Shown piece by piece: positions 43,612 through 56,948 of a DNA stretch of 64,000 nt. The DNA is taken from the NCBI RefSeq assembly GCF_024346455.1, contig NZ_JAGQCY010000001.1, positions 248,001-312,000 of the forward strand, read 5' to 3'. The DNA comes from Cyanobium sp. Aljojuca 7A6. Its GTDB lineage: Bacteria > Cyanobacteriota > Cyanobacteriia > PCC-6307 > Cyanobiaceae. Position 1 is the first letter of the stretch; each line of letters begins with the position of its first letter. The notes under the pieces are model-generated. The model searched no databases. It was not told the DNA's origin and worked only from the letters and a program-made list of their open reading frames with translations. Both the position numbers and the translations under genes were made by a program.

Positions 43612-44023
43612 GCAACCAGCCCTGCAGTAATTGGCGCGCCTGGGGCAGCTGGCGCCGCAGCTGCGGCGAGAAGCACTCTCCCCAGGAGAAGTCGAAGGCC
43701 GGCACCAGCAGCTCGTGGGCCGGCACGCAGCGGTTGAAGAGCTGCTCGGCCAGGGCCAGCAAGCGGGCGGGCGCCACCCGGTGCGTGTCCCGCTCCCAGC
43801 CGTCTGAGGCCACCACGGGCCGCAGCAGGCAGGAGCTGCGGGGCGGCGCCAGCCAGGCGTCAACGATCAGCAGCCGATCGGCCGCCGCCACCGCCTCGGC
43901 CAGCTCGGGGGTGAGCTGGTGGCGCTGCAGACCCAGACCCTCCACCAGGTGCCAGCCCACCCCGTCATCGCCCCGCAGGGGGTTGCCGATGCCGATCAGC
44001 AGCGCCCCCTCGCAGCACTTCAT
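43604..44023 (-). CDS. hoxW: Hydrogenase maturation protease HoxW
   Basis: Endopeptidase that trims the C-terminal tail of HoxH after Ni insertion. 139 residues: [21 protein letters not shown] with the Asp metal ligand, then LLIVDAW and a late [13 protein letters not shown]. It fits the HoxW group of M52 proteases. ATG 44023 overlaps the hoxH stop by 4 bp (ATGA), so protease and substrate are made together. Confidence 0.92.
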
Positions 44024-45462
44024 CCCCGCAGGCGTTCGGCCAGCACCGTGCCATCGGCGGCCAGCAATTGCAGCCGCAGCGGCATCTGGCCGGCGGCATG
44101 GGTGGAGCAGGAGAGGCAGGGGTCGAAGCAACGGATGCCCGCCTCCACCCGGTTGAGCATCGCCTCGGGGATCTCGGCGCCGGCGGGCACCGGATCGGGG
44201 ATGTATTCCTGGGCGATCTGGTGCACGGTGCGGTTCATGGCCAGGTTGTTCTGGCCGGTGGCGATGATCAGGTTGACGCTGGTGAGCAGGCCGTCGTCAT
44301 CCACCTTGTAGTGGTGGAAGAGGGTGCCCCGAGGCGCCTCACTCACCCCCACCGCCTCATTGCGGTTGAGGGAGGCGCGCAGGCGGATGCGGCCGTGCAT
44401 CAGCTCGGGGTCTTGCACCAGGATCTCGATCGCCTCCAGGCAGGCCACGATCTCCACCAGCCGCGCGTGGTGGTAGGCGAAGCTTGACGTGGCGGTCTGG
44501 CCGCTGCGCTGGCGCAGCTCCGCCAGCTCCCGGTCGGCCCAGGGGGTGCCGACGCTGTCGCAGACGTTGAGCCGGGCCAGGGGGCCCACCCGGTAGATCC
44601 CGTCCGGATAGCCGAGGGGCTTGTAGTAGGGGAACTTGAGGTAGCTCCAGGGTTCCACCGCCTCGCCGAGGAACGCGGCATAGTCGTCCTCGCTGAGCTG
44701 GTCGGCCACGATCGCCCCGTTCGAATCACGGAAGCGAAGGCCGCCGTCGATGTGCTCCCAGAGCCCATGGGGGGTCACCAGGCCCATGAACAGGCTGGGG
44801 AAATCGCCGAAGACCCGCTGCTCCTTCTGCAGGGGGCCATCGAGCAGCTTTTTGTAGAGCTCCAGCGCCAGGGTCACGGTGGCGCGGGCCTCCGGCAGGC
44901 GCTCCAGGATCCAGTCCCTGGCCTCCTGGCTCAGGGGGGAGCGCACGCCCCCGGGCACCGCCCAGGCGGAGTGGATCTTGCGGCCGCCCAGCAGCTCCAG
45001 GATCTGCTGGCCGAACTGGCGCAGGCGGATGCCGGCCCGGGCCAGGTCCGGGTCGGCGGCCATCAGGCCGAAGACATTGCGTTTGGCCGGATCGCTCTCC
45101 CAGCCCAGCAGGAAATCGGGGCTGCTGAGGTGGAAGAAGGAGAGCGCGTGCGACTGGGTGAGCTGGGCCAGGTTGAGCAGCCGCCGCAGCTTGTCGGCCG
45201 CCGGGGGGATCGAAATCGCCAGCAGTTTGTCGCCGGTCTTGGCGGCCGCCAGCAGGTGACTCACCGGGCAGATGCCACAGATGCGGGCCGTGATGCCGGC
45301 CATCTCGGTGAAGGGGCGGCCCTCGCAGAACTTCTCGAAGCCCCGATACTCCACCACGTGGAAGCGGGTATCGGTGAGGTGGCCGGCGGCGTTGAGGTGG
45401 AGGGTGATCTTGGCGTGGCCCTCGATGCGGGTCACCGGGTCGATGATGACGGTGCGGGTCAT
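44020..45462 (-). CDS. hoxH: Bidirectional [NiFe] hydrogenase large subunit HoxH
   Basis: Catalytic subunit holding the NiFe(CN)2CO site, 480 residues. N-terminal Ni-ligand motif [11 protein letters not shown] and C-terminal [10 protein letters not shown] give the four Cys ligands. About 25 residues after the C-terminal motif form the extension removed by HoxW, so the gene encodes an unprocessed precursor, as expected. ATG 45462 is 10 bp after hoxY. Confidence 0.97.
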
Positions 45463-45472
45463 GGCGGAGTCC

Positions 45473-46066
45473 TCATCCGAAGCGCAGCATGGCGGAGCCT
45501 TCCTGCGCAGGCCGCTCACCGGCCAGCAGAGGCGTGATCGCCTCGCGGATGCGCTCGGCGGAGGGGGGGCAGCCCGGCAGGTAGAGATCCACCGGGATCA
45601 CCTCGTGCAGGGGCAGCACCCTGGGCAGGAGTTCGGGGACGATGCCGGGGGCGAAGGGCAGCTGGCCCGTGGCGTCGGCCAGCTCCAGGTAGCCGCGCTC
45701 CAGCACGGCCTTGGCGCTGTCGTGGCCGCCATCGAGCAGGTTGCGCAGGCCCGGCACGTTGGCCGTCACGGCGCAGTCGCCGAAGGAGATCACCAGGGCG
45801 GTGCGCTGGCGCAGCTGCAGGGCCAGCTCGAGGTTGTCGACGTTCGCCACCGCCCCCTCCACCAGGGCGATGTCGACGGCCTCGGGGTAGATCTTGACGT
45901 CAGTGCCGACCGGCGAAAAGACCACATCCACCTTCTCGGCCAGATCGAACAGGAACTCGTCGAGATCCAGGAACGACATGTGGCAGCCGGAGCAGCCCGC
46001 CAGCCAGACGGTGGCGAGGCGGAGCTTGGCGGCGGGTGGGGAGGGGGCCATGGGGTGGGGGGTCAC
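45473..46066 (-). CDS. hoxY: Bidirectional hydrogenase small subunit HoxY
   Basis: Short hydrogenase small subunit (197 residues) carrying one [4Fe-4S] cluster; ligands from [25 protein letters not shown] and [12 protein letters not shown]. Forms the hydrogenase module with HoxH. The GTG start at 46066 overlaps the hoxU stop by 4 bp; ATG 46051 would remove five residues. Confidence 0.96.
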
Positions 46067-46782
46067 TGGTTGTGCCAGCGGCGCTGTTCGCGGGCGGTGC
46101 GCAACAGGGCGGGCAGGGTGGTGTTGGGCTGCTTCTCAGCGGTGGTGTCGCTGTTGCGGAACAGGGCGCCGGTGGGGCACACATCCACGCACTTGCCGCA
46201 GGAGGTGCAGGCCTGCACCTGGCCCCAGGGCTCATCGAGGCCGGCGACGATGTGGCAATGGCCGCCGCGGCTGCCGATGTCCCACACATGGGCCCCCTCG
46301 ATCTCGTCGCACACCCGCACGCAACGGGTGCAGAGGATGCAGCGGTTGTGGTCGAGGGTGAACTGGGGGTGGGTGGCGTCCACCGGCCGCTGGGGGTACT
46401 GGTAGGGGAAGCGGGAGTGGTCCATGCCCACGGTCACGGCCATGTCCTGCAGCTCGCAGTGGGTGTTGGCCACACACACGGCGCAGACGTGGTTGCCCTC
46501 GGCGAAGAACAGCTCCACCGTCATGCGCCGGTACTCCCTGAGCCGGGGGGTGTGGGTGTGCACCACCATGCCCTCGGCGGCGGCGGTGCTGCAGGCGGGC
46601 AGCAGCTTGGTCGAGCCCTCCACCTCCACCAGGCACAGCCGGCAGGAGGACACCGGGGTGAGGCCTTCGAGGTGGCAGAGGGTGGGAACGTTGGCTTCCG
46701 CCGCCCGGGTGGCCTCCAGCAGGCTGGCCCCCGCCGGCACTGCCACGTCCTGGCCATTGACGTTGAGAGTGATGACGCTCAT
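46063..46782 (-). CDS. hoxU: Bidirectional hydrogenase diaphorase subunit HoxU
   Basis: Iron-sulfur subunit (239 residues) linking HoxF to HoxY. Order: [2Fe-2S] ([29 protein letters not shown]), the His/Cys cluster ([15 protein letters not shown]), and two [4Fe-4S] motifs ([13 protein letters not shown] and [14 protein letters not shown]). Homologous to the N-terminal part of NuoG. ATG overlaps the hoxF stop by 4 bp. Confidence 0.96.
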
Positions 46783-48392
46783 CGCTCCACCCCCCCGGCG
46801 GCGACGCAGGCCGCAGGCTCGCGGCAGGCGGCTTCGTACTCGTGGCGGAACCAGCGCAGGGTGCTGAGCACGGGATTGGGGGCCGACTGGCCCAGGCCGC
46901 AGAGGCTGGTGACCTTGACCATCTGGCAAAGGGCATCGAGCCGCTCCATGTCGGCGGCGGTGGCCCGGCGCTCCACGAAACGATCGAGCAGCTGGGCCAG
47001 CTGCACGGTGCCGGCGCGGCAGGGCACGCACTTGCCGCAGCTCTCGTTGACGCTGAAGCCCATGAAGTGGCGCGCCACCTCCGGCATCGAGGTGCTCTCC
47101 CCCATCACCACCATGCCGCCGGAGCCCATCATCGAACCGAGCTCCAGCAGGCTTTCGTAGTCGACGGGGGTGTCGAGCCGTTCGGCCGGAATGCAGCCGC
47201 CTGAGGGGCCCCCCGTCTGCACCGCCTTGATCGGCGAGCCATCGGGCACGCCGCCGCCGATCACCTCCACCACCGTGCGCAGGGGGGTGCCCATCGGCAC
47301 TTCCACCAGGCCGGTGTTGACCACCGCTCCGGACAGGGCGAACACCTTGGTGCCCTTGCTGTGCTCGGTACCGATGGCCCCGTACCAGTCGCCCCCCTGG
47401 CGCAGGATCGCCGGCACGGCGGTGAAGGTCTCGACGTTGTTGATCAGGGTGGGGGCGCCCCAGAGGCCCGACTGGGCCGGGAAGGGGGGCCGGGGCTGGG
47501 GCATGCCGCGCTGACCCTGAATCGAGAGCAGCAGGGCCGTCTCCTCACCACACACATAGGCGCCGGCGCCCACCCGCACCTCCAGCCGCAGGTTGAAGCT
47601 GGTGCCGTCGATGTGGTTGCCCAGCAGGTGCCGGCTGCGGGCCTGCTGCAGGGCCAGCCGCAGCCGTTCGATCGCCAGGGGGTATTCCGCCCGTACATAG
47701 ACGAAACCCCGCTCGGCGCCGACGGCGTAGGCGGCGATCGCCATCCCCTCAATCAGCCGGTGCGGGTCGCTCTCCAGCACGCTGCGGTCCATGAAGGCGC
47801 CGGGGTCCCCCTCATCGGCGTTGCAGACCACGTAGCGGGGGCCAGGGGGCTGGAGGGCCACGGTGTCCCACTTCAGGCCTGTGGGGTAGCCGGCACCGCC
47901 CCGGCCGCGCAGGCCGCTGCGGCGCACCTCATCGCGCACCTGCTCGGGGGTGAGCTCCTGCAGAACGCGGTGCAGCTGGGCGTAGGTGCCGAAGGCAATG
48001 GCGTCGTCGATGGATTCGGGATTCACCTGGCCGCAGCCCTCGAGCACCACGGGCTGCTGCAGGGCGAAGAAGGGGTCTTCCAGATCAAGCCGATGGGCCG
48101 CCAGGGCGTCGCCGCTGCCGCAGGGGTGGCTGGTGGCAAGGCTGGCGGCGATCAACGCCCCGGCCTGCTCCGGCTCCACGCCACCGAAGAGCTGGCTGGG
48201 GCCGGGTCCATCACAGGCCACCAGGGGGCCGCTGCCGCAGAGGCGCAGGCAGCCCACTGGTTTGATCGTCAGCGCCTCAGCGTCGAGGCCGGCAGCGTCC
48301 CGGGCGCCCTCGAGGGCCGTGCGCAGGGCCTGACCACCGGCGGAACGGCAACCGCTGGCGTCGCAGCAGCGCAGCTGCGGGGGGACGGACAT
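46779..48392 (-). CDS. hoxF: Bidirectional hydrogenase diaphorase subunit HoxF
   Basis: NAD(P)H-binding diaphorase subunit, 537 residues. N-terminal thioredoxin-like [2Fe-2S] remnant (CDASGCRS.., CLRLCGSG), NAD-binding GRGGAGYPTGLKW, FMN-binding CNADEGDPGAFMDR, GAYVCGEETALL, and C-terminal [4Fe-4S] ESCGKCVPCRAG with a late CGLG. ATG 48392; the nearest upstream gene on the same strand is a substrate-binding lipoprotein, 54 bp away, not hoxE as in standard hox operons. Confidence 0.97.
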   Translation of the reverse strand: MSVPPQLRCCDASGCRSAGGQALRTALEGARDAAGLDAEALTIKPVGCLRLCGSGPLVACDGPGPSQLFGGVEPEQAGALIAASLATSHPCGSGDALAAHRLDLEDPFFALQQPVVLEGCGQVNPESIDDAIAFGTYAQLHRVLQELTPEQVRDEVRRSGLRGRGGAGYPTGLKWDTVALQPPGPRYVVCNADEGDPGAFMDRSVLESDPHRLIEGMAIAAYAVGAERGFVYVRAEYPLAIERLRLALQQARSRHLLGNHIDGTSFNLRLEVRVGAGAYVCGEETALLLSIQGQRGMPQPRPPFPAQSGLWGAPTLINNVETFTAVPAILRQGGDWYGAIGTEHSKGTKVFALSGAVVNTGLVEVPMGTPLRTVVEVIGGGVPDGSPIKAVQTGGPSGGCIPAERLDTPVDYESLLELGSMMGSGGMVVMGESTSMPEVARHFMGFSVNESCGKCVPCRAGTVQLAQLLDRFVERRATAADMERLDALCQMVKVTSLCGLGQSAPNPVLSTLRWFRHEYEAACREPAACVAAGGVER

Positions 48393-48414
48393 GGGGAACC
48401 GGGGGCGCCTATGG

Positions 48415-48427
48415 CCTTGCTAGCCAC
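48415..48427 (-). repeat. 13-bp element before hoxF, identical copy before hoxE
   Basis: On the - strand GTGGCTAGCAAGG, 22 bp before the hoxF ATG. The same 13 bases occur 20 bp before the hoxE ATG (54586-54598). Contains the palindrome GCTAGC. I saw no third full copy in the window. A shared regulatory element or a recombination footprint are the main readings. Confidence 0.6.
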
Positions 48428-48446
48428 GAAATCGGCGCCGCGCTGT

Positions 48447-49454
48447 TCATTTCGTTTGGCCCAGCCGCTGGATGAGGCTGTCCGTCGTGGTCGGCAGGGG
48501 GGTGCTGGCCGGGATCACGCCACTGTCGTAGAGCACCTGACGGATTTTCTCCAGGAGCGGGGGCAGGTTGTTCTGACGCGGGTCCAGCAGCTCGTACTGC
48601 TCCTGGGGACCGGGGTAGCGGATGCCATCCCACAGGGCCGCGTTCGCTCCGGAATCAAGGCCGAGGTGCTGAGCGATCTCTCGGCGCACCGCCGCCGGGC
48701 GGTGGCTCTCCTCCGCCCGGACCGCCTGCCAGCCCTGAAGCAGGGCCAGGACCGCGTCGGGATGCAGGCGGAGCAGCTCGGGTTCGACGGCGAGCACATC
48801 CAGGATCTCGTAGGGGAGTTGCCGGCTGCTGAACAGGGTGGCCAGCGGCTGGGAGCGCAGCAGTTGCTCGCTCCTGGGGGGGTAGGCCACCACCGCCTGC
48901 ACCTGCCCCTGCCGCAGGGCCGCCTCCCAAGCGGCAGCGGGCAGGAAACGCAGCTGGGACGCCTCGGGGGGGGGCAGAGCCTCGGACTCGAAGGCCCGGG
49001 CCAGAAAGTAGCGGGAGAGGCTGCTGCGGTCGAGGGCAATCGGCCGGCCCAGCAGGCCCTTCAGCTCCGTCACCCCCGGGCGGGCCAGCAGTTGATCACC
49101 ACCGCGGGATTCATCGATGACGTACACAATCACCGGACACCGCTCCGGAGCCACCCCACAGATGTTGACGGCCTCGATCGAGGTGGTGGCAATCGCCTGG
49201 GCCCGCCCCGCGATGTAGGCCTCCATCGTGCCCGCCGAGTCGGCGAAATTGCGCAGATCGAGATTGAGCCGGCGGGGATCGTACTGATTGCTTTGCTTCG
49301 CCAGGGCGAAGTAGGCGTACCCCGGCCATGGGTTCATCGCCAGCACGATCCGGGGAGGCTGGGGCTGGCAGCCCATCGCCACAACCAGCAGCAGGGATCC
49401 CAGCGCGGCTAAGCAGCCGAGCCGGCGCCGCCAGGGCCGAAGGCGCCTCCCCAG
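48447..49454 (-). CDS. Orphan substrate-binding lipoprotein (NMT1/SsuA-like)
   Basis: Periplasmic binding protein of the nitrate/sulfonate/thiamine-precursor (SsuA, NMT1) type: RIVLAMNPWPGYAYFALAK, TSIEAVNIC, LLGRPIALDRSSLSRYFLARA, AVVAYPPRSEQLL. A basic segment (RRLRPWRRR) and hydrophobic helix end in VVAMGC, a lipobox. The start codon is unclear: no ATG, GTG or TTG lies just before the signal peptide. CTG 49454 is used as a placeholder; TTG near 49602 or ATG 49664 would add a long unnatural leader over the divergent gene. No permease or ATPase is nearby, so it may act as a sensor part rather than a transporter. Confidence 0.75.
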   Translation of the reverse strand: MGRRLRPWRRRLGCLAALGSLLLVVAMGCQPQPPRIVLAMNPWPGYAYFALAKQSNQYDPRRLNLDLRNFADSAGTMEAYIAGRAQAIATTSIEAVNICGVAPERCPVIVYVIDESRGGDQLLARPGVTELKGLLGRPIALDRSSLSRYFLARAFESEALPPPEASQLRFLPAAAWEAALRQGQVQAVVAYPPRSEQLLRSQPLATLFSSRQLPYEILDVLAVEPELLRLHPDAVLALLQGWQAVRAEESHRPAAVRREIAQHLGLDSGANAALWDGIRYPGPQEQYELLDPRQNNLPPLLEKIRQVLYDSGVIPASTPLPTTTDSLIQRLGQTK

Positions 49455-49635
49455 CGGAAAGGCGATGGGGGCGTGAACACCGATGGGAGGTGGCCCTAGA
49501 AATATAGAGAAAGTATGATGGATTACCGACGCGAACGTTGCCGTTCCGCCGCAGTCCGCCGCCCGTCTCCCCCTGCCCTCACTGCCCCCTACCGACGAAC
49601 GCAACGACCGGAAGGGGCGCTCTCTGGTCGTTGGC

Positions 49636-52269
49636 GTGGTGGCGATCGGACTCCTCGGCACCATCCTGCTGGCCTGGAACAGCTACACCCAGGCCAGCAA
49701 GGAGCACGACCTCCGGGAGGAACCCACAGCCGATCTGGTCCGCAACGCCCTGTTGCGAAAACTGGCCAGCACGGAATCGGTGCTGCGCAGCCTGGCTGGA
49801 CTGGAGCTGGCCTCGGAAGCAGTCACCCTCTCCGAGCTGGAACGGTTCGTCGGGTCCGTGGCGAACGACGGCCGCAGCCTCGACGGCATCGGCACCATGG
49901 GCTATGCCACCGCCGAGTCCGGGAAGGCCCCGATCCGCCTGATCGCGCCGCTGGATGCCAGCAACCGCCGTCTGCTGGGAAGCGATCTCTGGTCGCAGGT
50001 CCTCGACCCCGGCCAGGGCCTGCGGCAAGACAGCGCACCCAGCCAAGGCTGGCTCCTGCCTGGCCGGTCCGGGCCGGGACAGCCAACGTTCTTGGTGCAG
50101 ATCCTTGCCTTTGGCGGCAGCCCCACCGCCGCCGGTCCTGGGCCCACACCCCCCACCCGCTGGGCCTTCGCCACCCTGCCGCTGCGGGACCTCCTGCGGG
50201 CGGCCCTGCACCACCCGTTGATCCAGCTGAAGGAGCCTGTCATCCTGCAACTCTACAGCGGCGAGCGGGCCAACCCCAACCAGCTTCTTTACGACTCCCG
50301 CAACCTCCCCCGGGCCGGCGTGCTGCCCCATGCGAAGTCACGGCTGCTCGAGACCGGAGGCCAGCGCTGGCTGTTGCTGGTTCAGACACCCCTGCAAGTC
50401 TCCGGCCCTTGGCTGCCCACCTGGGGGGCCGTGCTGCTGCTGGGACTGGCGACCAGCGTCCTGGCGGGCCTGCTGAGCCAACAAGTCCTGAAAGGGAGCC
50501 AGGCGATCGAACGGGAGGAGCGGAACCTGGGCGCCATGCGGCGCAACTGGGAAGCCAGTCTGGAATGGTTCCACCTGTTTCGCCAGGCCTTTTCCCTGAT
50601 CCAGGAAGGCGTTGTGATCACCGACAGCACGGGGTCGATCCTGACCTGCAACGAGGCCTACTCCGCCATCACCGGCTACGCGCTGGAGGCGCTGGTGGGC
50701 CGCAACCCCCGCATGATGAAATCCGGCTACCAGGGCACGGCGTTCTATGCGGCGCTGTGGGAGCAGCTGCGCGCCAGCGACCGTTGGCAGGGGGAGATCT
50801 GGAACCGGCGTTCCAGCGGGGAGATCTACCCCGCCTGGATGCAGATGGGGGTGGTGCGCGATGCGTCCGGCGCCCCCAGCCATTTCGTGGCAGCTCTGGC
50901 CGATCTGACAAGCCTGCAGGAGAAGGACCGCCAGCTGGAATACCTGGGCTATCACGACCCCCTCACCAGGCTGCCCAATCTGCAGATGGCCGAGCTGCGG
51001 CTGGGTCAGTTGTGCCAGCAGACGCAACCGCTGGCGCTGATCTGGATCGAGCTGGATGGTCTCAAGCGCATCGAGGAAAGCTTTGGCCAGGCCAAGGGGG
51101 ATCAGCTGCTGCAGGTCATCGTCGAGCGGCTGGGCCGTTTCGTGGGCCCCACGGACGTCTTGGCCCAGGTCGGCAGGAGTGAATTCCTGATCGTGCATTC
51201 GCTGGATCCGGCCGATCCCACGGGCCTGCAGTTGGCCCATCACATTGTTGGCGGCTTGAGCGATCCGATGGCACCAGTGGAAACACTGGAACAGGCCCTT
51301 TCGGCCTGGGCCGGAGTGAGTTGCTTCCCCAAGGACTCCAGGGAGCCGGAAACCCTGCTCCTGTTCGCAGCCACGGCCCTCGGGCAGGCCCGACGCCTGG
51401 GGCCCCAGGCGATCCTGCCCTACACGGCCGAGATGACGATCCGCAGCCGCCACCGCCTGGCCATCGAAGCCCACCTGAAACGGGCGGTGGAAGCCGACCA
51501 GCTGGAACTTTTTTACCAGCCCCAGGTGGATGGCCAGGGGACGCTGCTGGGGGCCGAGGCCCTGCTGCGTTGGCGCAGTCCGAAGTTCGGTCTCGTTTCA
51601 CCGCTGGAGTTCCTCCCCATCGCCGAGGCCAGCGACCTGATCCACCGCATCGGCGCATGGGTGCTCGAAGACGCCTGCCGCCAGTGGCAGGCGTGGGTGC
51701 AGGCCGGCCTGACCCCGGGCCGGCTGGCGGTGAACCTCTCCAACCGCCAGTTTCAGGATCCAAAGCAGAGCGTGCCCCAGCTGGTGGCGGCGTGCCTGGC
51801 CCGCACCTGCCTTGAGGCCCACTGGCTGGAGCTGGAGATCACCGAGAGTTGCCTGATGCCGGCTCTGGGCACGCGCGAGCAGCTCCTGGAACTGGAGGCC
51901 ATGGGAGTAGAACTGGCGATCGACGACTTCGGCACCGGCTTTTCGTCCCTGAGCACCATCCATAGGTATCCGATCAGCAAGCTGAAGATCGATCGCTCCT
52001 TCGTGGATGGCGTTGACACCAACCCCACCTCCCAGTCGATCGTGCGCGCCACCCTGGCCATGGCCCGAGGGCTGGGGGTGAACACCCTGGCCGAGGGGGT
52101 GGAGCGCCCCGAGGAGCTGGACTTCCTGCTGCGCTGTGGCTGCCCCGCCTTCCAGGGCTATCTGTTCAACCGTCCCCTGGCCGCCGCCCAGTTTGAAGCC
52201 CTGCTCCAGAAGGGCGCGGCCGCCGGCCCGGCGCCCGGCGGCGAGCCGGCCAGGGTGCACCACTCATGA
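49636..52269 (+). CDS. Membrane CHASE-like/PAS/degenerate-GGDEF/EAL protein
   Basis: An 877-residue c-di-GMP enzyme. N-terminal helix, ~250-residue periplasmic sensor (CHASE-like), second helix (~265-285), PAS domain (~325-430), GGDEF-like domain whose signature at ~513 is GRSEF, with no RxxD inhibitory site, and an EAL domain with GAEALLRWRS (Glu641), NLSNRQF, LELEITES, IDDFGTGFSS (763) and LKIDRSF. So the cyclase half is probably inactive and the phosphodiesterase half looks intact. GTG 49636 is the first usable start; an earlier non-standard start would add basic residues before the first helix. Divergent from the binding lipoprotein and overlapping the next gene by 4 bp. Confidence 0.88.
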   Translation: MVAIGLLGTILLAWNSYTQASKEHDLREEPTADLVRNALLRKLASTESVLRSLAGLELASEAVTLSELERFVGSVANDGRSLDGIGTMGYATAESGKAPIRLIAPLDASNRRLLGSDLWSQVLDPGQGLRQDSAPSQGWLLPGRSGPGQPTFLVQILAFGGSPTAAGPGPTPPTRWAFATLPLRDLLRAALHHPLIQLKEPVILQLYSGERANPNQLLYDSRNLPRAGVLPHAKSRLLETGGQRWLLLVQTPLQVSGPWLPTWGAVLLLGLATSVLAGLLSQQVLKGSQAIEREERNLGAMRRNWEASLEWFHLFRQAFSLIQEGVVITDSTGSILTCNEAYSAITGYALEALVGRNPRMMKSGYQGTAFYAALWEQLRASDRWQGEIWNRRSSGEIYPAWMQMGVVRDASGAPSHFVAALADLTSLQEKDRQLEYLGYHDPLTRLPNLQMAELRLGQLCQQTQPLALIWIELDGLKRIEESFGQAKGDQLLQVIVERLGRFVGPTDVLAQVGRSEFLIVHSLDPADPTGLQLAHHIVGGLSDPMAPVETLEQALSAWAGVSCFPKDSREPETLLLFAATALGQARRLGPQAILPYTAEMTIRSRHRLAIEAHLKRAVEADQLELFYQPQVDGQGTLLGAEALLRWRSPKFGLVSPLEFLPIAEASDLIHRIGAWVLEDACRQWQAWVQAGLTPGRLAVNLSNRQFQDPKQSVPQLVAACLARTCLEAHWLELEITESCLMPALGTREQLLELEAMGVELAIDDFGTGFSSLSTIHRYPISKLKIDRSFVDGVDTNPTSQSIVRATLAMARGLGVNTLAEGVERPEELDFLLRCGCPAFQGYLFNRPLAAAQFEALLQKGAAAGPAPGGEPARVHHS

Positions 52270-54059
52270 GGCTCCCCCACGGCAGCCTGACTCCGCGCCA
52301 GGGGCTGCTTCTGGCGCTGTTGGCCGGGCTGACCGTGCTGGGCAACGTGAGCGTGGTGCCCCTGTTCTTCAGCATCCAGTTCCTGCTCGGATCGATCGCC
52401 GCCACCTTCACCCTGCTCTGGCGACGGGGCTGGTGGAACGTGGCCTTCACCATCGTGGCAAGCCTCTACACCTGGAAGATCTGGGGGCACCCCTGGGCGA
52501 TCGTGATCTTCGGCGCCGAGGCCCTCTGGCTGGCGGTGTTCGTGAATCGCTTCAGCGGCCCGCCTCAGAACGATCTCAAGGGCCGCCTCATCCTGGCCGA
52601 CATCGCCTTCTGGCTCCTGGTGGGGACACCGCTGGTGTTCTTCCTCTACGGCCACGTGCTGCACATCGATCCGGCGAATGTGGCCGTGGTGGCCGCCAAG
52701 CAGGTGGTCAACGGCATCGCCAACACCGTGGTGGCCTTCCTGCTGTTCGTGCTGCTGCAGGTGCGGCGCAACTGGCAGGGCCAGGGGCTGCTGCCCCTGC
52801 GGGGCCTTGTGTTCTCCTTGGTGCTGGCCGCCATCACCCTGCCTTCACTTGGCGTCACCCTTCGCTCGGGCAACCTGCTGCAGAGCGCCACCCAGCAGGG
52901 GGTTCTGGAAAATCTGCGCAGCGTCGGCGAAGCCGCCGCCCGCATCGATCCCCTCCAACTCGGCGAACCCTCCCGGGGACTTCCCGCCAGCAGCGGCGCG
53001 ACAGCGTTCCTGCTCATCGACAACGAGGGTACCCGGATCAGTTCCAACCCCGGGCTCTTCCTGCGCCTGGAGGACAATTTTTCCCCCGCCTCGCCTGAGC
53101 ACATCCTGGTGAGTGGGCTGCAGATCCTCGTTCCAAGAGGAAACAGTCCTGCCCTGAAGGTGTGGGTCAACGGCTACTGGAGCACCACGTTGACTTCGGC
53201 CCGTTATCTGGTCCAGGTCGTGCAACCCGCCGCGCCGATGGTGCTGAGCCTCCAGGAGCAAAGCACCAGCCTGCTCCTGACCGTCATGTGGATGATGTTG
53301 GTGGGGGTCCTGCTCAGCGAGGTGGTGGCCACGGTGGTGGAGGGCCAGATGCAAACCCTCCGCCTCTCCTTGTTGGAAACGCCCAGATCGCCAGCCCTCA
53401 ACGGCAGCCTGGCCAGTGAGGCCCCGGCCGCCAGCAGCCGCATCGTCGAGGTCCAGGACCTGGCCAGCCGCCTCCAGGAACAACACAGAAAAGTGGCGCA
53501 AATGAGTCAGGACTTCACTGACGTGAGCGCCAGATTGAAGCAATGCTCCGAGCGACAACGCCTCCTCAGCAGCACCGATCCCCTGACGGGAATCAACACC
53601 CGCTCGAACTTGGAGCACGTCCTGAAACGCGTCGCGCAACGGTCCCGTTCCTGTTCTGTTCCCCTGTCCTGCCTGGCCTTTTCCGTGCATGGTCTGCGGC
53701 CGATCAATACCCTCCACGGGATGCAGAAAGGCGACGAAATCCTGCGGCACTTGATCGCCAGCGTGCAGCAGTTTCTGCACGCCAACGACGAACTGTTTCG
53801 TCTTGGAGGCAGTGCATTTCTGGTGCTGCTCTGGGACCAGCGCCTCGAATCGGCCCGCACCACGGCGGAGCAGATCCGCAAGGTCGTCAGCGAGACCGAC
53901 CTACCCCCGTGCGACGGATCGTTGCCGCAGCTGACGATGAACGCCGGGATGAGCCTGCTGGCCGCCTCGGATACCACTGGGCAGGAGATGTTCTCCAGGG
54001 TGGAGCTGGCCCTGAACCAGTCCCGCGACCTGGGGACGAATCAAGTGGTGGTGCGCTGA
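52266..54059 (+). CDS. Membrane sensor protein with degenerate GGDEF domain
   Basis: A 597-residue protein: about six N-terminal membrane helices (residues ~10-205), a periplasmic Cache-like segment (~210-330), another helix (~335-355), a coiled-coil-like stretch (RLQEQHRKVAQMSQDFTD), and a C-terminal GGDEF domain (~440-597) opening SSTDPLTGINTRSNLEHV. The catalytic signature at ~514 is GGSAF in place of GGDEF, so cyclase activity is doubtful; it may bind GTP or c-di-GMP or act as a partner of the upstream EAL protein, to which it is coupled by an ATGA overlap. Its last 19 bp overlap the converging end of hoxE. Confidence 0.82.
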   Translation: MRLPHGSLTPRQGLLLALLAGLTVLGNVSVVPLFFSIQFLLGSIAATFTLLWRRGWWNVAFTIVASLYTWKIWGHPWAIVIFGAEALWLAVFVNRFSGPPQNDLKGRLILADIAFWLLVGTPLVFFLYGHVLHIDPANVAVVAAKQVVNGIANTVVAFLLFVLLQVRRNWQGQGLLPLRGLVFSLVLAAITLPSLGVTLRSGNLLQSATQQGVLENLRSVGEAAARIDPLQLGEPSRGLPASSGATAFLLIDNEGTRISSNPGLFLRLEDNFSPASPEHILVSGLQILVPRGNSPALKVWVNGYWSTTLTSARYLVQVVQPAAPMVLSLQEQSTSLLLTVMWMMLVGVLLSEVVATVVEGQMQTLRLSLLETPRSPALNGSLASEAPAASSRIVEVQDLASRLQEQHRKVAQMSQDFTDVSARLKQCSERQRLLSSTDPLTGINTRSNLEHVLKRVAQRSRSCSVPLSCLAFSVHGLRPINTLHGMQKGDEILRHLIASVQQFLHANDELFRLGGSAFLVLLWDQRLESARTTAEQIRKVVSETDLPPCDGSLPQLTMNAGMSLLAASDTTGQEMFSRVELALNQSRDLGTNQVVVR

Positions 54060-54565
54060 GGCAGGCCAGCGGCCTCCAGCCGGGCGTCGAGCGCCTCGCT
54101 CTGGTCGACGGGCAGCCGCGTGATCAGTTCCCCATCCACCACCAGCACCGGCGCCTGCCCGCAGGCCCCCAGGCAGCTGACGTGCTGCAGGGCCCAGACG
54201 CCATCCCCCGACGGATCGTCGAGACGCACCCCCAACCGCTGCTCGATGCGGGCCGCCACCTGCCCACCTCCCTTCACATAGCAGGCGGTGCCGAGGCAGA
54301 CGGCACAGCGGTGGGCGGTGGGGGGCTTGAGCCGGAAGAGGTGGTAAAAGCTGGCCACGCCGTGGACGCGGCTCAACGGCAGCCGCATCCCGGTGGCCAC
54401 GTCCCGCAGGGCCTGCGGTGCCAGGTAGCCGTGGAGCTCCTGCACCTGGTGCAGCACCTCAATGAGCGCGTCGGCGCGGGCGCCATGGCGACGGATCACC
54501 TGGGCAATGCGCGGATCTGGGCCGGCGGCGACCTGATCGGTGCTGGCTGCGGTTGAAGCGGTCAT
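54041..54565 (-). CDS. hoxE: Bidirectional hydrogenase subunit HoxE
   Basis: The NuoE-like [2Fe-2S] subunit of the cyanobacterial Hox diaphorase, 174 residues from ATG 54565. Cluster ligands in HRCAVCLGTACYVKGG and VSCLGACGQAP; helical N-terminal part HGARADALIEVLHQVQELHGYL. It normally lies directly before hoxF; here 5.6 kb of other genes separate the two. A strong GGGGAGG ribosome site precedes the ATG. Confidence 0.95.
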   Translation of the reverse strand: MTASTAASTDQVAAGPDPRIAQVIRRHGARADALIEVLHQVQELHGYLAPQALRDVATGMRLPLSRVHGVASFYHLFRLKPPTAHRCAVCLGTACYVKGGGQVAARIEQRLGVRLDDPSGDGVWALQHVSCLGACGQAPVLVVDGELITRLPVDQSEALDARLEAAGLPQRTTT

Positions 54566-54585
54566 GCCGTCGTTGTCCCACCTCC

Positions 54586-54598
54586 CCTTGCTAGCCAC
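54586..54598 (-). repeat. 13-bp element before hoxE, identical copy before hoxF
   Basis: GTGGCTAGCAAGG on the - strand, 20 bp before the hoxE ATG and just upstream of its ribosome site. Identical to 48415-48427 before hoxF. Flanking bases differ, so the identity is confined to these 13 bases. Confidence 0.6.
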
Positions 54599-54880
54599 AC
54601 CTGGGGCCATGGTCAGCAAGACCGCAGCAGGACTGCAGCGGCCATGACGACGGACGAGAAGCAGGCCGCTACCTATAGTCGAAGATTTGTAGGTAATCAC
54701 GCGATGAACCCTTGCATTCAGGCTCAGATCCCGACCACAGTGTTGCGTTTTATTTTGCCTTTCCGTGCGTCTGCCCTGGCGTGCGAAAAGGACATCAACG
54801 GCCTGCAGAGCAGCTCCGACAGCCACGCAGAAAGCCTCAGCCAATAAAGGCCTTCACCTCTGGCACGGTGAAATGCATAG
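54599..54880. other. Non-coding region between hoxE and the PAS-GGDEF gene
   Basis: Together with the elements on either side this is a 352-bp divergent intergenic region, clearly less GC-rich than the coding DNA (for example AAGATTTGTAGGTAATCACG and GTTGCGTTTTATTTTGCC). I see no convincing gene; the open frame at 54644-54847 has no family-like features. It probably carries the hoxE promoter (a TATAGG-like box on the - strand near 54670) and the leader of the + strand gene. Confidence 0.5.
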
Positions 54881-54920
54881 CAAATGATTAGCCGTCTCAT
54901 TTGTTAGTCCGAATCATTTG
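54881..54920. promoter_or_regulatory. Spaced inverted repeat over the PAS-GGDEF start
   Basis: CAAATGATT (54881-54889) and its exact complement AATCATTTG (54912-54920) are 22 bp apart; a third half TCATTTG lies between (54897-54903). The right arm ends on the TTG start codon of the PAS-GGDEF gene. This could be an operator or an RNA hairpin that hides the start. Inference only. Confidence 0.35.
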
Positions 54921-56948
54921 AATTCTTCCCAACCTCGATACCATCCAAGATTCGTCGTCTCGGCCGTTGCCCTGATCGGCCTTTTTCTGCTGGATCTGGC
55001 CCTGACAAGAATCCTGGGCACTACCCTGTTCCAATACTACTGGATTCCCGTGGTGCTGGCAGCTTCCTTCTCCACGCCGCGCCAGGTGGGTTGGATCACG
55101 AGTCTGGCGATCGCCCTCACCGTCGCCTGGTCACTTCAGGCTCCCCAGGCCTCAACACTGGAACTGATGCTGCGGCTGGCCGGCCTGATCGGGCTGGCCT
55201 GGGTGTCGATGCATCTGGCTCGCGAACTGCAGGCGAAGGAACGCAGCAACCGGCAACTCAAGGAGCATTACCAGTTGCTGGCCGAGAACGCCCCGGATGT
55301 GGTCCTCAGCAGCGACAGGGACGGGCGGATCGCCTGGGTCTCCCCGTCGGTGCGGCAGCTGCTGGGCCATGACGCCTGCCAGTTGCAGGGTCGGACCATC
55401 GACGAGCTGCTGCTGGAGGCGGACCGCGGGCAGCTGGATCAAGCCATCGGTCGGGTCCTGCAGGGGAACAGCAGCCTCTGCGAGCTGCGCTTCCGGGCCG
55501 CTGATGGGGGCAGCCGCTGGGTCTCCATGGCGCTGCGTCCGGTGCTCGCACCCGATGGGGAGGTGATGGGCATCGTCGGCAGCTGGCGCGACATCCAGGG
55601 GGAGGTGGAGGCCCGTCAGGCGGAGGAGCGCACCAAGGCGGCCCTGGCGGCTTCGGAGGAACGGCTGCGCCTCACGATGGAGAACGCTTCAACCGGCATC
55701 GCCCTGCTCGATGCCTCAGGCCATTTCCTGTCCATCAACCCCACCGGCTGCGGGCTGCTCGACCGCGACCTGGCTGGGCTGGAGGGCCACACCTGGCAGG
55801 CCTTCTCGCCGGCCGCCGACCAGGCCAGCGAAGCCCCGCTGATGGAAGCTCTGCTCAGCGGCCAGCACCCCTGTTATCGCCTGCGCAAGCGCATCCTCCA
55901 GAGGGCCGGCAGCTCCATCTGGGTGGACTGCAGTGTCTCCTGCTCACGCCGTCCCGACGGCAGCCTGGCCTTCGTGATCGCCCAGTTCAATGACGTGACC
56001 GAGATGGTTCAGGCGGAAGCCGCCCTGGCCACCTCGGAGGAGCGCTACCGGCTGCTGGCGGAAAACTCCAGCGATGTGGTGCTCCTGATCAAGGACGGGG
56101 TGATCAGCTGGATTTCCCCCTCGCTCACCTGCATGCTGGGCTGGCAGCCGGAGGACTGGATCGGCCATCCCCTCAGCCGCTTCATCCCCGCCGATGAGCA
56201 ACCGGTCCTGGAACGCCACCTCCGTACCCTGGCCAGCGGTCAGACGGTGGTCAGCCGGCTGCAGGCCCTGGCCCACGACCACAGCCAGCGCTGGGTGGAA
56301 CTGCATGCCAGCTCCCACCGGGATCCGCTGGGCCGTCTCGACGGCATCGTCGGGTCGTTCCGAACGGTGGATCAGGAGGTGGCCGCCGAAAGGGAACTGG
56401 CCCGCCGCGCCTGCACCGACGAACTGACCGGCCTGGTGAACCGCCATGAGGCGCTGGAGCAGATCACCGCCATCGCCGTCCGCGTGCTGCGCCATGGCGA
56501 TGCCACCGCCGTGCTGTTCTGTGATCTCGACAACTTCAAGGAGATCAACGACACCTTCGGCCACATCCCGGGCGACGAACTGCTCCGGACCGTGGCCACC
56601 AGAATCCGCATCGGCCTGCGCAGCGGCGACATGGCCGCCCGCATCGGTGGCGACGAGCTGATGGTGGTGCTGCAGGGGGTGCGGAGCCTGAACGATGCGA
56701 TGGCGATCGCTGAAAAGCTGCGTCGGGCCGTGGCCGAACCGATCCCCACCAGTGCCGGCTACCTGTCAATCACCCTGAGCATCGGCGTGACCATGGTCCA
56801 ACCCGGCGAAAACCCCGACGAAATCATCTCCAGGGCCGACCGCGCCATGTACCGGGCCAAGCAGACCGGGCGCAACCAGGTGCTGCCTTTCACCGAACAG
56901 AGCGGTGCCGCTGAAAACCGGAGCGCCGCCTGGCAGCCGGTGCTCTGA
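54918..56948 (+). CDS. PAS-PAS-PAS-GGDEF diguanylate cyclase
   Basis: A 676-residue membrane diguanylate cyclase. Two to three N-terminal helices (~12-100), three PAS domains (~115-235, ~245-365, ~370-490), then GGDEF (~505-660) with the active signature GGDEL at ~577 and an RSGD inhibitory site exactly five residues before it. It should make c-di-GMP from GTP with product inhibition. Start is TTG 54918. It is divergent from hoxE, the third c-di-GMP-type protein around the hox genes and the only one with an intact cyclase signature. Confidence 0.92.
   Translation: MNSSQPRYHPRFVVSAVALIGLFLLDLALTRILGTTLFQYYWIPVVLAASFSTPRQVGWITSLAIALTVAWSLQAPQASTLELMLRLAGLIGLAWVSMHLARELQAKERSNRQLKEHYQLLAENAPDVVLSSDRDGRIAWVSPSVRQLLGHDACQLQGRTIDELLLEADRGQLDQAIGRVLQGNSSLCELRFRAADGGSRWVSMALRPVLAPDGEVMGIVGSWRDIQGEVEARQAEERTKAALAASEERLRLTMENASTGIALLDASGHFLSINPTGCGLLDRDLAGLEGHTWQAFSPAADQASEAPLMEALLSGQHPCYRLRKRILQRAGSSIWVDCSVSCSRRPDGSLAFVIAQFNDVTEMVQAEAALATSEERYRLLAENSSDVVLLIKDGVISWISPSLTCMLGWQPEDWIGHPLSRFIPADEQPVLERHLRTLASGQTVVSRLQALAHDHSQRWVELHASSHRDPLGRLDGIVGSFRTVDQEVAAERELARRACTDELTGLVNRHEALEQITAIAVRVLRHGDATAVLFCDLDNFKEINDTFGHIPGDELLRTVATRIRIGLRSGDMAARIGGDELMVVLQGVRSLNDAMAIAEKLRRAVAEPIPTSAGYLSITLSIGVTMVQPGENPDEIISRADRAMYRAKQTGRNQVLPFTEQSGAAENRSAAWQPVL

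Follow-up and report, generated by a model that had tools for sequence, protein, structure and literature searches.

The bidirectional hydrogenase (hox) genes of Cyanobium sp. Aljojuca 7A6 lie in a 64,000-nucleotide stretch of contig NZ_JAGQCY010000001.1 (positions 248,001 to 312,000; hereafter the window, whose own numbering is used throughout), where they are interrupted by three genes linked to cyclic di-GMP (c-di-GMP) signaling. The locus has the domains of a cyanobacterial bidirectional hydrogenase, with iron-sulfur, flavin mononucleotide and NiFe domains in hoxE, hoxF, hoxU and hoxH; between hoxU and hoxH lies a gene that we take to be hoxY from its position and the usual gene order. In cyanobacterial Hox loci hoxE is expected directly before hoxF, whereas here 5,648 bp separate the hoxE stop from the hoxF start, both genes being on the minus strand. 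This interval holds a gene for a solute-binding protein (SBP) on the minus strand, ending 54 bp upstream of hoxF on that same strand, and two plus-strand genes, one for a GGDEF-EAL protein (the EAL gene) and one for a second GGDEF protein (GGD2). The initial annotation had described hoxE as parted from hoxFUYH by a minus-strand lipoprotein gene and two plus-strand genes of GGDEF/EAL type, about 5.6 kb in all, and these calls and coordinates hold; its 19-bp overlap of hoxE with the second GGDEF gene (54041-54059) and its 54 bp between the lipoprotein gene and hoxF are both exact.

Table 1. Features of the hox locus and its surroundings in the window.
Feature	Position	Strand	Remarks
hoxH, large subunit	44020..45519	-	Pfam NiFeSe_Hases 5.4e-27; order same in relatives
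hoxY	45473..46066	-	start approximate; named by position; adjoins hoxH in relatives too
hoxU	46063..46782	-	start inferred; Fer2_4, NADH-G_4Fe-4S_3 and Fer4 domains; open in 15 clade genomes (in G012 as far as the contig end)
hoxF	46779..48392	-	Complex1_51K 1.7e-47, NADH_4Fe-4S 2.7e-31
TGGCTAGCAAGG before hoxF	48415..48426	-	starts 34 bp before the hoxF ATG; candidate promoter/operator
SBP, predicted lipoprotein of SsuA/TauA/NMT1 solute-binding type	48447..49514	-	start uncertain; frame open to ATG 49664
EAL gene, membrane CHASE-PAS-degenerate GGDEF (GRSEF)-EAL protein	49636..52269	+	predicted c-di-GMP phosphodiesterase; start uncertain
GGD2, membrane protein with degenerate GGDEF (GGSAF)	52266..54059	+	GGDEF 1.6e-20
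hoxE	54041..54565	-	2Fe-2S_thioredx 3.1e-39; HoxE model NF005747 1.9e-51, under its cut-off
hoxE/GGD2 overlap, 19 bp	54041..54059	.	read as insertion scar; the tail of hoxE (QRTTT-stop) lies antisense to the C-terminal end of GGD2
TGGCTAGCAAGG before hoxE	54586..54597	-	starts 32 bp before the hoxE ATG; -10-like part TAGCAA
GCTGACC, -35-like	54611..54617	-	13 nt before TGGCTA; CTGACC 17 nt before TAGCAA
PAS-PAS-PAS-GGDEF (GGDEL) gene	54918..56948	+	divergent from hoxE; outside the cassette

The interruption is confined to one group of relatives. Among 99 genomes surveyed (the window's genome and 98 relatives), hoxE was found in 53 and hoxF in all of these. The gap between the two genes was counted in the 52 that carry them on one contig and strand; the genome left out, G040, has these genes in identical order on two contigs, the break falling between SBP and EAL. 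Measured between aligned ends, and so a few bases off the distances between gene calls, the gap is 29-396 bp in 39 genomes, 808-877 bp in three (G009, G023 and G034) and above 5 kb in ten (G000, G002, G003, G004, G006, G008, G012, G013, G018 and G038), all ten belonging to a single clade of 15 genomes. An artefact of assembly or binning is extremely improbable, since these ten genomes share the arrangement on single contigs, with gaps spanning 5,330-5,680 bp, and since G023, a one-contig genome, has pseudogene pieces of the cassette. The caution of an assembly join raised in the initial annotation is thus not borne out, and neither is the case that it named as refuting, an interruption universal among relatives, because comparison of the hox loci places it in one clade only. 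Outside that clade, hoxE and hoxF of G034 are parted in another way, by an open stretch of 233 codons on the opposite strand (L096, 9307-10190).

Several lines of evidence bear on how the cassette arrived. In the rpoB tree all 15 genomes that carry the cassette or traces of it group together (support 100/99); next to this group stand G027 and then G014, both with contiguous hoxEF. The HoxE proteins of the clade end in the tail PQRTTT in 13 of the 15 genomes, with one change each in G009 (RTIT) and G023 (RITT), and this tail occurs in none of ten outgroup HoxE proteins. The DNA that encodes it is the antisense of the GGD2 end, which argues that the cassette joined hoxE near its last codons. We read the 19-bp overlap as a scar of this join, which would have given hoxE a new tail and stop antisense to the last gene of the cassette. 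These comparisons support a single entry of the three-gene c-di-GMP cassette, at the hoxE 3' end and in the common ancestor of this picocyanobacterial clade. A recombination of hoxE from the G029/G035 lineage was considered and set aside: the hoxE tree is too weak to decide (approximately unbiased (AU) test, p 0.26 for the clade with G014 and G027, 0.16 with G029 and G035). In the hoxF and hoxH trees, a clade held with G029 and G035 is rejected (p 0.0002 and 0.0005). Of the phrase "a cassette that inserted and stayed", used in the initial annotation, the first half stands, as one event in one clade, and the second only in part.

All three cassette genes are open in eight of the 15 genomes, one or more are broken in three, pseudogene pieces are left in two and scars alone in two. 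The SBP gene is broken in G038 and all three genes are in pieces in G002, while in G040 a stop cuts GGD2 short at residue 568 of 597. The hoxE-hoxF gaps of G009 (809 bp) and G023 (872 bp) contain SBP and GGD2 in broken pieces; the 139-bp spacer of G025 retains the ends of GGD2 and SBP, and the 97-bp spacer of G041 the SBP gene end. These scars, together with the clade HoxE tail, rule against taking the lack of a cassette in G025 and G041 for the ancestral condition. Four separate losses, in G009, G023, G025 and G041, are the simplest count, because the junctions differ among the four genomes and because genomes with losses pair with intact ones: on rpoB, G023 with G018 (99/97), G041 with G004 (100/100) and G025 with G012 (91/94), and in the hoxFHY tree, G023 again with G018, G041 with the intact G003, and G025 beside a group with three intact members.

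Where the cassette persists, its sequences indicate that it is under selection, but more loosely constrained than the hox genes. The ratio of nonsynonymous to synonymous substitution rates (dN/dS), calculated with our own NG86 script for nine pairs of cassette-bearing genomes, is 0.22-0.50 for SBP, EAL and GGD2 versus 0.06-0.23 for hoxE, hoxF and hoxH; the flanking genes give 0.13-0.26 (OMP), 0.15-0.25 (PAS-GGDEF), 0.11-0.31 (GRX) and 0.04-0.40 (DJ1). In the G000-G040 pair, dS of the SBP gene (0.51) is well above that of hoxF (0.20), and recombination within the cassette could account for this.

What, then, does the cassette mean for the hydrogenase? The initial annotation had offered a functional tie, and a tie of this kind could take the form of capture of hoxFUYH by the SBP promoter or of c-di-GMP control of hox. 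The SBP gene does lie on the same strand close before hoxF, the cassette genes are under purifying selection, and c-di-GMP genes flank hoxE on both sides. However, the cassette is gone in four of the 15 genomes and has broken genes in three, and hox is kept: hoxE, F, U, Y and H are free of in-frame stops in all of G002, G009, G023, G025, G038 and G041. Repeated deletion or breakage of the cassette while the hox genes stay open argues against a required link. In addition, related cassettes adjoin clpC, away from hox, and the titles and abstract beginnings of the papers listed in the literature searched (10 of 52 in one of the searches) show no such link. We therefore regard control of the hydrogenase by cassette signaling as quite unlikely. 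A required tie is unsupported, and the cassette looks like a tolerated passenger, which would act as a signaling unit of its own beside the hydrogenase genes.

A second possibility is that the hoxE transcript continues past its gene, antisense to both GGDEF genes, and on into SBP-hoxFUYH, in which case c-di-GMP and hydrogenase genes would act on each other's RNA. The geometry fits, with two opposite-strand genes inside same-strand genes of one pathway, and hoxE and GGD2 overlap at their ends. On the minus strand from hoxE to hoxF there is one weak terminator-like site (53617-53601, 5 pairs), and there is none between SBP and hoxF; Cyanobacteria are not known to have Rho. Such noncontiguous operons are a described class, and the hox locus resembles the menE-menC-MW1733-ytkD operon of Staphylococcus aureus in that the genes of one pathway are split by an opposite-strand gene or genes (PMC7154746). 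It differs in having a promoter-like element for its downstream part. The copy of the hox element before hoxF counts against continuous transcription, as does the deletion of the antisense genes in four lineages that kept the hox genes open, and we consider this explanation unlikely. It is tempting to speculate, though the odds are poor, that a plain hydrogenase operon became a noncontiguous one, in which phosphodiesterase mRNA and hoxE-hoxFUYH mRNA are mutually antisense and cells choose between signaling and fermentative hydrogenase. If so, the deletions in sister species would be natural reversions, offering matched pairs for how such operons arise and vanish.

The element before hoxF offers a possible account of how the split could be borne. 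The 3.13-Mb genome contains just two exact copies of the 12-mer TGGCTAGCAAGG, one before hoxF and one before hoxE; allowing one mismatch gives 16 matches in this genome versus 13 for the control, which is no enrichment. Its core, TGGCTA, is invariant at both genes in all 15 clade genomes, and it is retained before hoxF in all four genomes with deletions. The -35-like GCTGACC precedes hoxE in 14 of the 15 (GCTGTCC in G038), at the same spacing in every one. Across 24 genomes the 11-mer TGGCTARCAAG has 34 matches, at least one in each of 21 genomes, and 16 of these lie before hoxE and seven before hoxF, as read by hand against the positions of the two genes. Genome-wide enrichment was rejected, the reversed 11-mer having 46 matches versus these 34; it is the place of the matches that is special. 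In five outgroup genomes the 11-mer stands before hoxE, 32-33 bp ahead of an in-frame ATG. G029 and G035, whose hoxEF is contiguous, have the 12-mer before hoxF with one and two mismatches and show five mismatches at their hoxE. Since the hoxF element is absent in nearer outgroups and present in these farther ones, we can only infer that a start site of hoxF's own predates the cassette, which needs losses in the nearer outgroups. If the element has promoter activity, the split may be tolerated because hoxF, like hoxE, has a copy of it in front.

Taken as a whole, we think it likely, with good confidence, that a single insertion, a passenger tolerated without a required hydrogenase link and an element of hoxF's own together explain the locus. 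Several observations weigh against this explanation. The 12-mer before hoxF is missing from the closest outgroups (G014, G027 and Synechococcus sp. J7-Johnson), and the hoxF element comes without the -35-like part seen at hoxE. A sigma-70 scan of 48300-55000 found no promoter, and only TGGCTA is invariant, the full 11-mer missing at hoxF in eight and at hoxE in four of the 15 genomes. Instead, hoxF could be read from an SBP promoter, on the same strand and 54 bp away. Several tree forks are weak, and G025, G041 and G009 take other positions in the hox trees than they do on rpoB. The dN/dS ranges of the neighbors DJ1 (0.04-0.40) and GRX (0.11-0.31) overlap that of the cassette, and because eight of 15 genomes keep the whole cassette open under purifying selection, the place itself may be of benefit.

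The proteins of the cassette suggest what it might sense and do. The SBP has family matches under cut-off (NMT1_2 1.4e-4, TIGR03427 6.3e-21, TIGR01728 7.5e-12) and, in the PDB, matches the taurine-binding protein 6ssy (7.1e-6). A cysteine sits at a lipobox-like place, hence the predicted lipoprotein. The EAL protein has Pfam matches to EAL (3.1e-63), GGDEF (7.7e-22) and PAS_9 (8.5e-11); CHASE falls below the cut-off in the window copy (7e-4) and reaches 5.2e-11 in the homolog L083. With all EAL motifs compared, these are kept in ten clade proteins, with a single change each in G012 and G003, and the GGDEF site of the same protein is GRSEF, GRNEF or GRGEF. At the corresponding site of GGD2 the window has GGSAF, G004 GGSKF and G003 GGNEF, and the seven remaining full copies have GGSEF. 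With the EAL motifs kept and the GGDEF motifs altered, we predict that the cassette breaks c-di-GMP down instead of making it, given the usual meaning of these motifs.

The pairing of SBP and EAL genes recalls NspS-MbaA, and by analogy the SBP lipoprotein would bind some small solute and modulate the EAL phosphodiesterase in the way that NspS acts on MbaA. SBPs of NspS-MbaA type are of the polyamine (PotD-like) family, whereas the cassette SBP matches the NMT1_2, TIGR03427, SsuA and taurine families instead. In Vibrio cholerae, NspS sets whether MbaA makes or breaks c-di-GMP (PMC8967002). As in that system, the SBP gene of the cassette adjoins a membrane GGDEF-EAL gene with an altered GGDEF, and an SBP/EAL pair stands at the clpC locus too. 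Unlike NspS-MbaA, the cassette has an SBP of SsuA/TauA/NMT1 type that is a predicted lipoprotein, a CHASE-like sensor part, divergent genes and an added pseudo-GGDEF protein. Such pairs seem to recur in the family: SBP genes clustered with GGDEF or EAL genes were also seen at L086, L087 and L088 (in G020, G029 and G049).

As to origin, a transposon or insertion sequence was rejected: the Pfam domains of the three cassette genes include no transposase, and among the 25 of 30 inverted pairs listed, none was a terminal inverted repeat linking the two ends of 48380-54070. The SBP/EAL pair has its nearest relatives between gldA and clpC in G014, G027, G029 and G035 (SBP 41-47% and EAL 39-42% identical); both gene names are our own labels, the models having matched glycerol dehydrogenase and ClpB/ClpA families under their cut-offs. 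Perhaps, then, the gldA-clpC cassette of sister species moved to hoxE-hoxF in the clade. The SBPs from hox and clpC form one group against other paralogues (100/99; nine hox rows, G038 and G002 being under the length filter), and the gldA-clpC place, filled in the four genomes just named, is empty in all six clade genomes checked of the 15 (gldA 3-21 bp from clpC; 21 bp in G000). None of the 99 genomes has both a hox-type and a clpC-type SBP, and an AU test, with G049 and five distant rows of the SBP tree left out, does not reject nesting of the hox SBPs with G014/G027 (p 0.46). However, the gldA-clpC place is also empty in the outgroups G016 and G020, and the four clpC copies (L082-L085) have ECL in place of the EAL seen in the hox copies and in another paralogue. 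The clpC rows tend to cluster, at 80/66 in the SBP tree, 45/0 in the reduced AU set and 93 in the EAL tree (ten hox rows, G002 left out), and the clpC locus does not include GGD2, whose closest relative (43%) is in G020. We hold the move from clpC to be possible though somewhat doubtful. Alternatively, the hox cassette may be a separate, horizontally gained relative, with the clpC copy lost. Simple relocation is neither shown nor rejected by these comparisons.

Rearrangement of the hox operon as such is already known. Gene order varies among cyanobacteria, with seven arrangements, in one of which (Group 7, one genome) hoxE is apart from hoxFUYHW (PMC5186783); interspersed open reading frames in hox clusters are also on record (PMC4463661). 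In Synechocystis a single operon holds the hox genes, and its regulators include SigE and cyAbrB2 (PMC11368403). PMC8846402 and PMC5902973 were also consulted for this comparison. Like the published hoxEFUYH clusters, the locus comprises bidirectional [NiFe] hydrogenase genes of variable order (PMC5186783, PMC4463661). Unlike in those clusters, hoxE of the window keeps its place in the gene order and its orientation, and is parted from hoxF by a cassette with opposite-strand genes, and one gain followed by several losses was traced here. In the titles and abstract beginnings of the papers listed in the literature searched (10 of 52 in one of the searches), no c-di-GMP cassette inside hox is described. 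The clade-specific insertion is real and its history readable: the states before, during and after the splitting of an operon by a signaling cassette can all be seen in living relatives. A hox-specific cis element common to the upstream and downstream halves suggests why the split could be survived, and with its two copies TGGCTAGCAAGG is a concrete lead to hydrogenase control in picocyanobacteria. The case also warns against inferring function from gene neighborhood alone.

Treating the c-di-GMP genes that flank hoxE as one regulatory unit was rejected, since the PAS-GGDEF neighbor is older and the cassette is lost while hox stays. The PAS-PAS-PAS-GGDEF gene, absent from the initial annotation's account, was at hoxE before the cassette, with a full match in G027 and a partial one in G014, both without the cassette at hox. 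This gene is itself broken or shortened in G002, G025 and G038.

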